This document shows positions 41,413 through 50,415 of a stretch of DNA of 64,000 nt, piece after piece. The translations under genes were made by a program, and so were the position numbers. Source of the DNA: Planctomycetia bacterium (GTDB taxonomy: Bacteria > Planctomycetota > Planctomycetia > Gemmatales > HRBIN36); the NCBI GenBank assembly GCA_016795155.1, contig JAEUIE010000019.1, positions 1 through 64,000 on the forward strand, given 5' to 3'. The notes under the pieces are model-generated. The model did no database searches and was not told the DNA's origin. It saw nothing but the letters and a program-made list of their open reading frames with translations. The first letter of the stretch is position 1. Every line of letters starts with the position of its first letter.

Positions 41413-41518
41413 AGCCGCCAATCAATTAAAGTTCTTTGATGGTAACAGTTTAGGTATATTTGAAGGACTTGCCAAGATTTCTGTACCGCAGTAATAGCAA
41501 CTACTTTCCCAAAATACA

Positions 41519-41546
41519 GGAAGCGAGAGTGTTTACTCTCGCTTCC
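41519..41546. terminator. Intrinsic terminator of the ECF sigma gene
   Basis: A perfect 12-base stem (GGAAGCGAGAGT and ACTCTCGCTTCC) with a 4-base loop, GTTT, starts 8 bases beyond the sigma gene stop. On the minus strand it is followed by TGTATTTT, a fair U-tract. Confidence 0.8.
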
Positions 41547-41554
41547 ATTATTGA

Positions 41555-43025: not shown

Positions 43026-43862
43026 ATGAAACTTGCTTTCAGCAGCAACGCATACCTTAATTACAGCTTCTCGGAAGCAGCCAGGCGTATAGCAAATGCA
43101 GGCTATAGTGGTATCGAAATTATGGCCGATGTACCCCATGCCTGGCCTGCTTATCTGTTACCAGAACAAAAGGCTGCTATCAGGGAACAACTTGAGCTAA
43201 ACAGGTTGCAAATCAGTAATGTCAATGCCTTCATGATGAACGCCATCAATGATCATCGTCAGAAATACTGGCATCCATCGTGGATTGAACCGTATCAACC
43301 CTATCGCCAAGTTCGTATTGATCACACCATGCGGGCATTGGACCTGGCCAAGGAACTCGGAGCACCCTGCATTACAACGGAACCCGGTGGACCACTTGAA
43401 CCTGGACAGACTTTTGAACAGGGCTTGGAATTATTCTGCGAAAACCTGCTGCCTGTTGCAGACCATGCAAAATCAATTGGCGTTCCACTCTTAATTGAAC
43501 CAGAACCAGGCTTGTTGATTGAGACAGCAGCTCAATACGAACGATTTGCCAAAGTATTCAATCATGCTGGCATCGGTCTGAACTTCGACATAGGACACAT
43601 GTATTGTGTCAACGATGATCCTGCGACTGCGATCCGACAGTTAGCCAAACATATTCGCCACGTGCATCTGGAAGATATAGCAGCAACTCGCGTTCATCAC
43701 CATCTGGTGCCTGGTGTAGGAGCGATTGATTTTGTACCAGTGATTTCCGCATTGAAAGAAATTGGCTACCTGGGATGGATTACCATCGAGCTATATCCCT
43801 ACATCGATAATCCTGACCAGGCTGCAACGACTGCATTCAAGGCGATATCTAAGCTACTGTAA
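43026..43862 (+). CDS. Sugar phosphate isomerase/epimerase (xylose-isomerase-like TIM barrel)
   Basis: A 278-residue soluble TIM-barrel protein of the AP-endonuclease-2/xylose-isomerase-like superfamily. Metal-ligand positions are visible: Glu in TTEPGG, Glu in LLIEPEPG, Asp and His in NFDIGHMY, His-Glu in HVHLEDI, and a final Glu in WITIELYP. The family includes hexulose-phosphate isomerases, hydroxypyruvate isomerase and EboC-like proteins; the substrate is not clear. No partner genes are close. A related but exported protein is at 49396. The gene is followed by a MITE-like element. Confidence 0.85.
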   Translation: MKLAFSSNAYLNYSFSEAARRIANAGYSGIEIMADVPHAWPAYLLPEQKAAIREQLELNRLQISNVNAFMMNAINDHRQKYWHPSWIEPYQPYRQVRIDHTMRALDLAKELGAPCITTEPGGPLEPGQTFEQGLELFCENLLPVADHAKSIGVPLLIEPEPGLLIETAAQYERFAKVFNHAGIGLNFDIGHMYCVNDDPATAIRQLAKHIRHVHLEDIAATRVHHHLVPGVGAIDFVPVISALKEIGYLGWITIELYPYIDNPDQAATTAFKAISKLL

Positions 43863-43886
43863 GCTAACGCAAATGCACTCGGAATC

Positions 43887-44017
43887 TGTGCCACACTCCG
43901 ACTGTACTCAGTCGGGGTGTGGTTGCAGTGAACTAAGTGGTAACTCAATTATTAACAGTGATACCACGATTGACAGGAAGCACACCTCGACGTGAGTACA
44001 CGTCGAAGTGTGGCACA
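43887..44017. mobile_element. MITE-like element with nested palindromic ends
   Basis: A 131-base non-coding segment starts TGTGCCACACT and ends AGTGTGGCACA. The first 36 and last 38 bases are inverted copies, identical except for two substitutions, the final base and one extra base pair in each arm half. Each end is itself a hairpin: CACACTCCGACTG-TACT-CAGTCGGGGTGTG at the left, and a CACACCTCGACGTG stem around AGTA at the right. There is no open frame and no obvious target duplication. It fills the gap between two convergent genes and ends 5 bases from the stop of the gene at 44023, so it may also act as terminator. Confidence 0.65.
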
Positions 44018-44022
44018 AAGTT

Positions 44023-45033
44023 TTAGCCTTTAGTAAAGCAGCGCCAGCCCTTGATGCCACGATGAATCAGGATCATACCGACTGCTGCCATGATTCCATC
44101 AATAACCGCGATGGTGAGCAGACTGCCGGGTTCATTCAAAACGGTGTAAACGGTACTGGCCAGCGCGATAAGTAAGAACGATAACCCAATTCCAGTGATC
44201 CACGCATAAGCTTTGATATTCAGTTCGCACCGTCGCCGTACCAGTTCAGTGGCTGAGTCTTTCGAGAGTCCCCATTCCATTGCCGTTAAGATGGTGGATC
44301 CCCTGCCCTTGCCTTCGGAAAGCATGACCATCGGGCTGCAACTGCGTGGGCATTCCCGCTCTGCCTGATGCTGTTCGGACCATGTTTTCCAGAATCGCCA
44401 GTTCTTCAGTGACCAACTGGTGACGACAACAGGAATGGACAGAAACAATACTAGTGCCAATCCAAGCCAACTAAACAAGTGGGAAGACATCATCACGCCG
44501 ACTGCAATCGTTGTAAGCAAAGCTCCTGTACTCAGAATAAGGCTCAACTGCAGCCAGACTTTAGACCAATATGTCGCACTATCGGTGAAAACGTCGACCA
44601 GTGTGCCTGCAAGCATGCCATCCATGCCACGGCTGGAGAGTTGCTCAACTGCTTCTTCCCTGCCAACTTTACCTAGTCGAATGTTGCGTAGGACATCCCG
44701 AACTCGACTTACAGCGACATGTCGCTGCTGGTTGAGTTGCTGAACCATGTAGGATGCATCGAGAGTCGAAAAACCCGCTTCGCGCAAGCGTGCAGAAGCA
44801 CGAGCCTGTCCGGATGGTGAATCATCCAGAACGCGGGCAGCATCTCGCAAAAGTTTTTTGGTAGTTTCAACCTGCTCTACCATTTCAGACACAGCAGCGT
44901 CGGCTTCTTCATGATTCCAGCCGAGGCGAACCAGCCGGATCACAGCGCCTATTTTATCCAGAGAGCCATTCATTAACTCCTGCCCGACATCCTGTAATTG
45001 CTCGGAGTAATCTTCAGGCAATCCGTCATACAT
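44023..45033 (-). CDS. Hypothetical membrane protein with helical N-terminus
   Basis: A 336-residue protein from the ATG at 45033, chosen for AGGA 8 bases upstream; a GTG at 45057 is in frame. The N-terminal 140 residues are helical and charged, with two similar three-helix blocks (IGAVIRLVRLGWNHEEADAAV, SARLREAGFSTLDASYMV) resembling UBA/CUE-like or short-SHOCT-like helices. Four transmembrane segments follow: two near 160-215 and two near 275-325. The loop between holds several Cys. Another UBA-like block (STILTAMEWGLSKDSATELVRR) lies before the last pair. I do not recognise the family. Confidence 0.72.
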   Translation of the reverse strand: MYDGLPEDYSEQLQDVGQELMNGSLDKIGAVIRLVRLGWNHEEADAAVSEMVEQVETTKKLLRDAARVLDDSPSGQARASARLREAGFSTLDASYMVQQLNQQRHVAVSRVRDVLRNIRLGKVGREEAVEQLSSRGMDGMLAGTLVDVFTDSATYWSKVWLQLSLILSTGALLTTIAVGVMMSSHLFSWLGLALVLFLSIPVVVTSWSLKNWRFWKTWSEQHQAERECPRSCSPMVMLSEGKGRGSTILTAMEWGLSKDSATELVRRRCELNIKAYAWITGIGLSFLLIALASTVYTVLNEPGSLLTIAVIDGIMAAVGMILIHRGIKGWRCFTKG

Positions 45034-50328: not shown

Positions 50329-50382
50329 ACCAACTCTTCCCATGTCCCCTCTACCATGCCCCCCTCTCCGAACAAAAATAAA

Positions 50383-50415
50383 AACCCGTGGAACTGTTCC
50401 ACGGGTTCTCCTTTT
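50383..50415. terminator. Bidirectional intrinsic terminator
   Basis: An 11-base perfect stem (AACCCGTGGAA and TTCCACGGGTT) with a 3-base loop, flanked by A-rich sequence on the left and TCTCCTTTT on the right. It lies between convergent genes and fits termination in both directions. Confidence 0.85.

Follow-up and report, generated by a model that had tools for sequence, protein, structure and literature searches.

A REPIN-like family of paired-hairpin repeats between genes of a Gemmatales planctomycete

Described repeats with folded ends

REPINs, reported from Pseudomonas, are defined as REP doublets that form hairpins (PMC3116915). The super-families of REP sequences carry GTAG or CGTC tags, and dimers occur among them (PMC3733652). 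The canonical REP tag is GT[AG]G, and every RAYT has its own REP family; class 3 RAYTs belong chiefly to Planctomycetes, and neither class 2.6 nor class 3 has the consensus tag (PMC6006769). The parts that serve in recognition are the tag, the mismatch and the loop, and the tetranucleotide has a guide role (PMC8266576).

The repeat analyzed here, designated family A, resembles the Pseudomonas REPINs in that two inverted REP hairpins enclose a spacer, the unit is intergenic and gene-less, and RAYTs are encoded in the same genome (PMC3116915). On the other hand, its tag is GTGC and its loop is TACT, its length is about 130 bases compared with the 71- and 110-base segments for doublets in the simulation of PMC3116915, and only 13-14 doublets and no same-family RAYT flank were found. 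In common with the REP and BIME sequences of E. coli and their TnpA-REP, family A has a long stem with a conserved non-Watson-Crick position, a strand-specific hairpin and an HUH Y1 enzyme in the genome; however, the E. coli REP has the tag GTAG and an AA-GC bulge, whereas family A has GTGC, a single T.G and a conserved TACT loop (PMC8266576 and PMC6006769). The GTAG- and CGTC-tagged palindromes, which are found in Planctomycetes too, are likewise short, occur singly or as head-to-head dimers, and lie mostly in gaps between convergent or unidirectional genes, but both tags are absent from family A, whose terminal motif is GTGC (PMC3733652). In the IS200/IS605 elements IS608 and ISDra2, a Y1 enzyme likewise reads ends that fold as single strands (PMC8266576, PMC6006769), whereas the family A unit is an almost symmetric doublet and has no gene. 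A search of open-licence PubMed Central by topic words, not motifs, found no paper on a GTGSCA/TACT repeat.

Structure and copies of the element

The 131-base element at positions 43887-44017 of the window (the whole 64,000-nucleotide stretch of DNA that was analyzed) is one copy of a small paired-hairpin DNA repeat family lying between genes. Read directly from the sequence, it consists of two inverted hairpins that flank a 57-base middle, and its arms begin TGTGCCACACTCCGAC and TGTGCCACACTTCGAC (Table 1). The preliminary description had proposed an element with palindromic inverted ends of about 37 bases, loops TACT and AGTA, and a middle of 57 bases. The direct reading agreed with this layout, the ends measuring 36 (left) and 38 bases (right). 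The gap between the two convergent ORFs is almost fully occupied by the element. When the arm model described below was run across the whole window, the two arms were detected at E-values of 3e-13 and 6e-12, their reverse-strand echoes at 0.003 and 0.014, and the following match at 0.1. About 11-12 bases beyond the 131 are kept, with changes, in most other copies (GCACTCGGAATC on the left and GATCACCGAAT on the right); the window copy retains the left segment and is without the right one. Because these conserved bases lie outside the element limits, the true repeat unit is probably somewhat longer than 131 bases.

Table 1. Features of the element and its surroundings (window positions)
Feature	Position	Strand	Remarks and basis
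5' lead GCACTCGGAATC	43875-43886	+	Outside the left hairpin; most full copies keep it, with changes (alignments, flank list)
Left arm, 36 bases	43887-43922	+	Arm-model match of 60.0 bits; pair counts over 30 arms
Left-arm tag GTGC	from 43888	+	
Left-arm stem	43891-43904 / 43909-43922	+	Includes one T.G mismatch
Left-arm loop TACT	43905-43908	+	
Middle, 57 bases	43923-43979	.	Less conserved; core partly self-complementary (GTGGTA..TACCAC) (fold and alignment)
Right arm, inverted hairpin, 38 bases	43980-44017	-	Arm-model match of 65.6 bits
Right-arm loop TACT on minus strand (AGTA on plus)	43995-43998		
Neighboring ORF, 278 aa	43026-43862	+	Stops 24 bases before the element (ORF list, context)
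Convergent ORF, 344 aa	44023-45057	-	Stop codon 5 bases past the element (ORF list, context)

An Rfam search of positions 43700-44300 gave two miRNA matches far below their gathering scores, which were taken as chance. Strong simple hairpins with 18- and 20-base arms were seen elsewhere in the window, at 41513-41552 and 50375-50415, directly after gene ends.

Folding of positions 43867-44037 as single-stranded DNA gave -41.6 kcal/mol, compared with -20.1 +/- 3.2 kcal/mol for 200 shuffles (z -6.66), none of which folded as well. In the fold of lowest energy, the two arms are joined through pairing of their outermost 11 bases, which closes a three-stem cloverleaf. In the competing fold, each arm forms its own full hairpin, and the consensus of 11 copies shows that one. 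The earlier statement that the structure is unlike simple hairpins is true, although the double-hairpin form was already known from REPINs. The covariation term of the consensus fold was only -0.07, and 7 of its 35 pairs were altered on both sides. Over 30 arms, 91% of the cells paired, compared with 31-50% in slid versions. Seven of the 17 stem pairs of these arms were altered on both sides, a level equally high in 3 of 500 shuffles, and their covariation score of 0.218 was reached by none of the 500; another covariation measure, the number of further pair types, was matched by 58 of 500 shuffles and counts against the REPIN-like reading. The T.G mismatch was conserved in 27 of the 30 arms, and an E. 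coli-type strand-specific mismatched stem position is therefore present. Since the opposite strand would carry A.C at this place, the hairpin is strand-specific and one strand folds better. In an alignment of 11 full copies, the end of one arm was GGTGTGG-TT and that of the other, in the inward direction, was GTGTGC; both had variants. The right arm was at least 37 bases long in 12 of 13 doublets and the left arm was 35 bases long in 8 of 13 (lengths without the first T).

A DNA search of the host genome (Gemmatales, Planctomycetota; 5.28 Mb in 68 contigs, 97% complete) found 10 full-length copies including that of the window (75-100% identity) and many lone arms. The copies other than the window's were only 75-85% identical to it, so the family has not spread recently. 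A covariance model built from 30 arms detected 34 arms at the counted threshold of E < 1e-5, and four further arms with E of 7e-4 to 0.007 were left out. The preliminary description had held that a lack of other copies in the genome or relatives would leave only a complex terminator; the 10 full-length copies and 34 strong arms are at odds with such an outcome. Copies in related genomes, for which it had also proposed a search, were not detected: the family was found in none of 40 relatives by DNA search and in none of 60 by the arm model with stricter filters (the 40 included), only 6 of these 60 being from the same family and none from the same genus, and no empty site could be demonstrated.

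By position, 26 of the 34 strong arms were paired into 13 inverted doublets, and 8 arms were left over. Among these 8, C27:98348 is accompanied directly on its inner side by a decayed partner (model E 0.25) and is a possible 14th doublet, which leaves 7 arms with no detectable partner. The mean identity was 0.90 for the 8 lone arms (the one later given a partner included), compared with 0.83 and 0.86 for the 13 + 13 arms of the doublets, and all 8 were 35 bases long. The greater likeness of the lone arms argues against singlets being decaying remnants and runs contrary to Bertels and Rainey, who reported singlets as remnants (PMC3116915). A transposon bounded by the same-orientation arms C27:19632 and C27:20759, which are separated by 1.1 kb, was considered and rejected; an unrelated 335-aa open frame lies between them and no transposase was seen there.

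Short inverted ends, an absent gene and many copies would also suit a classical MITE of a DDE transposase, which combines terminal inverted repeats with a target duplication. However, each end of family A is a hairpin with a conserved loop, lone single ends occur, and the flanks of the 13 doublets, which the preliminary description had suggested aligning for target duplications, showed no more duplication than permuted flanks did at the offsets tried. A classical MITE is scarcely credible on this evidence. Transposition by HUH Y1 enzymes is not known to duplicate the target, and the flanks of family A accord with this. Inspection by eye for a guide-matched 'GC' dinucleotide of cleavage next to the arms showed it conserved in no more than roughly half of the 11 copies in the alignment, and no claim is made for it.

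RAYT genes and hairpins of the same layout

Seven Y1_Tnp genes of the host genome lie above the Pfam cut-off. A search with the C32 protein added C22 (one stop) and C44, and a RAYT model added C5 and a C10 fragment. The RAYTs over the NCBIfam cut-off were C32 and C5, both intact, and C22 with its one stop; C32 scored 91 bits against a cut-off of 80, and C44 fell below it with 70 of 80 bits. Both the HxH and the YIxxNPV stretch of C32 aligned with the solved E. coli TnpA-REP structure 4er8 (E 6e-6), and the seven other matches in this structure-sequence search were coronins at 0.2-1. Comparison of the C44 sequence with solved structures gave nothing meaningful, and no relative was found with the C32 RAYT as a query against genome contigs.

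The C32 RAYT has GTGGCACTG..TACT doublets on both flanks, and the C44 RAYT has one inverted GTGCCATAG..TACT hairpin on each side. These flanking hairpins share the layout of family A and have different stems. One C44 hairpin has its upper stem and loop (TTGCGTGTACTCACGCTA) in common with an abundant GTGCCACGGTTTGCG repeat, and for this reason the sequences suggest that the GTGCCACGGTTTGCG repeat may be a client of the C44 RAYT. The other loci carried hairpins of other kinds: GTGCCATGCCCACC hairpins with other loops flank the C22 RAYT; ATAGTAGTCATCACTC hairpins with a classical GTAG-type tag stand on both sides of a RAYT-like gene at C23 (L133 1330-1470, 2130-2270); and inverted repeats GTGGGNCACGAT...ATCGTGACCCAC of a different repeat family are arrayed in tandem at the C5 RAYT (L131 1200-1430, 2150-2300). 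The C10 locus (G000:C10:57117, L136) repeats part of the C44 unit (L118) in decayed form, 79% identical over 281 bases with one hairpin included, and this similarity indicates duplication of a RAYT unit within one genome. None of the RAYT or TnpA loci examined has family A flanks; the transposase sharing the end sequence, for which the preliminary description had proposed a search, was not found at these loci.

The three IS200-type TnpA genes of the host (two at C8 and one at C59; two of the three exceed the NCBIfam cut-off and the other falls slightly short of it) bear on a second alternative, in which family A is a relic mobilized by such a TnpA and not by a RAYT. A lone family A arm (C59:34261) lies about 3.4 kb from the C59 TnpA gene, and the ends of IS200/IS605 elements are also subterminal hairpins (PMC6006769). 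In contrast to the RAYT loci, which have GTGSCA..TACT hairpins, none was found within 1.5 kb of the three TnpA genes, and mobilization by TnpA appears very improbable.

In other genomes of the order, the G088 RAYT (L098) has GTGGCC..TACT hairpins on both sides; one of the two G046 RAYTs (L102) has ATGGCC..TACT and the other (L113) GTGGCC..TACC, on a single side only. The hairpins adjoining these RAYTs are of the GCCGGGGTCGG type, with a loop the same as or similar to that of the host and a different tag and stem. Most other RAYT loci fetched from the order had other hairpins, or none by our search. In a RAYT tree, for which the G088 RAYT and both G046 RAYTs were put in one group, the two TACT-associated RAYTs of the host were not joined and both fell in an unresolved fork.

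At least three other hairpin groups of the host genome have the layout of family A, with a GTGSCA tag and a TACT loop. The pattern GTGSCA-N{8,12}-TACT-N{8,12}-TGS matched the host genome 156 times, compared with 18 times for a reversed control; a few of the matches overlapped. Among the 100 of these 156 matches that were listed, 85 were hairpins by our rule and 15 were not, and most belonged to four sequence groups: family A (13 hairpins), the GTGCCAYNGTTTS group (30), the GTGGCAGGGT group (27) and the GTGGCACTG group (13), with 2 others. In the same 100 listed matches, a mismatched T was seen repeatedly at stem position 10-12: as T10.G in 12 of 13 hairpins of family A, T12.T in 29 of 30 in the GTGCCAYNGTTTS group, T11.G in 18 of 27 in the GTGGCAGGGT group and T10.G in only 4 of 13 in the GTGGCACTG group. 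The GTGG-tagged sister groups would fit the canonical GT[AG]G tag, whereas the GTGC of family A does not. In the 391 other genomes of a 392-genome sample of the phylum (none listed from the order of the host), the top count for the same pattern was 29, with a control of 44. A looser pattern, applied across the order in 102 genomes, yielded for the most part matches at chance level; it gave 48 matches compared with 8 for the control in the host, and 60 vs 30 in G064, 57 vs 32 in G010 and 37 vs 10 in G065. One hairpin, GTGCCACGGTTTGCGTGTACTCACGCTAACCGTGC, was present in at least nine letter-for-letter copies among the 100 listed matches (e.g., C3:49246, C10:47463, C12:59798 and C23:6649), and judged by these copies its repeat family looks younger than family A.

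Placement between genes and proposed mobilization

By an ORF heuristic, all 13 doublets were intergenic; 10 lay between convergent genes, 1 between tandem genes and 2 between divergent genes, the placement being less sure for C55 and C54 (convergent) and C21:43173 (divergent), each of which has a gap of more than 200 bases on at least one side. If C27:98348 is counted as a doublet, 10 of 14 are convergent. At 8 of the 10 convergent doublets, both ORF ends were within 60 bases. Of the 52 adjacent gene pairs in the window, 8 are convergent, counting the pair around the element, and the convergent enrichment of the doublets had a binomial P of 1.4e-6 by pairs and 2e-4 by intergenic length. None of the 8 other arms lay between convergent genes, and 2 of them were inside long ORFs by the same heuristic. 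These two lone arms, C63:1275-1310 and C53:191805-191840, may be in-frame insertions, or the ORFs may be false.

This placement is a ground for a third alternative, a dispersed bidirectional transcript-end element (a terminator or 3' stabilizer) duplicated by recombination, in which RNA structure is selected and no transposase takes part. The excess of convergent doublets over the gene pairs of the window and the closeness of 8 of them to both ORF ends would be expected of such an element, and in RNA the conserved mismatch would be an allowed G.U pair. However, convergent placement has also been described for REPs as a whole (PMC3733652), and the arms first counted as singlets do not share it. 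A scan of the window copy found no terminator-like T run after its stems, and a classical terminator was rejected for this copy. A transcript-end element also leaves unexplained why the repeat is a doublet, why its tag and TACT loop recur in the hairpins that flank RAYTs, and why the 60 relatives lack it; we regard this alternative as unlikely, if less so than the MITE and TnpA alternatives.

Taken together, the results favor family A as a gene-less REPIN-like repeat mobilized as folded single-stranded DNA by a RAYT (probability about 0.77). Its REPIN-like anatomy and company are well supported: closely spaced inverted hairpins are repeated between genes in a genome that encodes RAYTs. On the other hand, the 5' tag at the hairpin foot is not the canonical one, no RAYT flanked by the same family was found, and singlets are not more diverged than doublets; family A is therefore a REPIN-like variant and not a proven member of a named family. 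The original designation, MITE-like and possibly REP-associated, stands as regards the REP-doublet (REPIN) anatomy and the RAYTs with like-tagged, like-looped hairpins, and finds no support as regards target duplication and a same-end transposase.

The mobility of family A, the RAYT that acts on it, the site of cleavage and any role in transcripts are matters that we infer. The strand bearing the element would become single, for example at a replication fork, and each arm would fold. A RAYT-kind Y1 (HUH) transposase encoded elsewhere in the genome would then recognize the tag, the loop and the mismatched stem, cut beside the hairpins, and copy or move the unit. Most of the doublets that survive lie directly behind two convergent genes, which would be the place of least harm, and transcripts there may also carry them as structured 3' ends.

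It is conceivable, although we hold it rather doubtful, that a RAYT reads the tag, loop and mismatch and ignores the stem, family A being an orphan client; one enzyme could then serve several gene-less families in trans. If the stem is ignored, stems could drift freely as long as their changes compensate each other. This genome, which has at least four hairpin groups of the same tag and loop and several RAYTs, lends itself to a natural test of what RAYTs read in a hairpin, and also of whether one RAYT can drive several repeat families.
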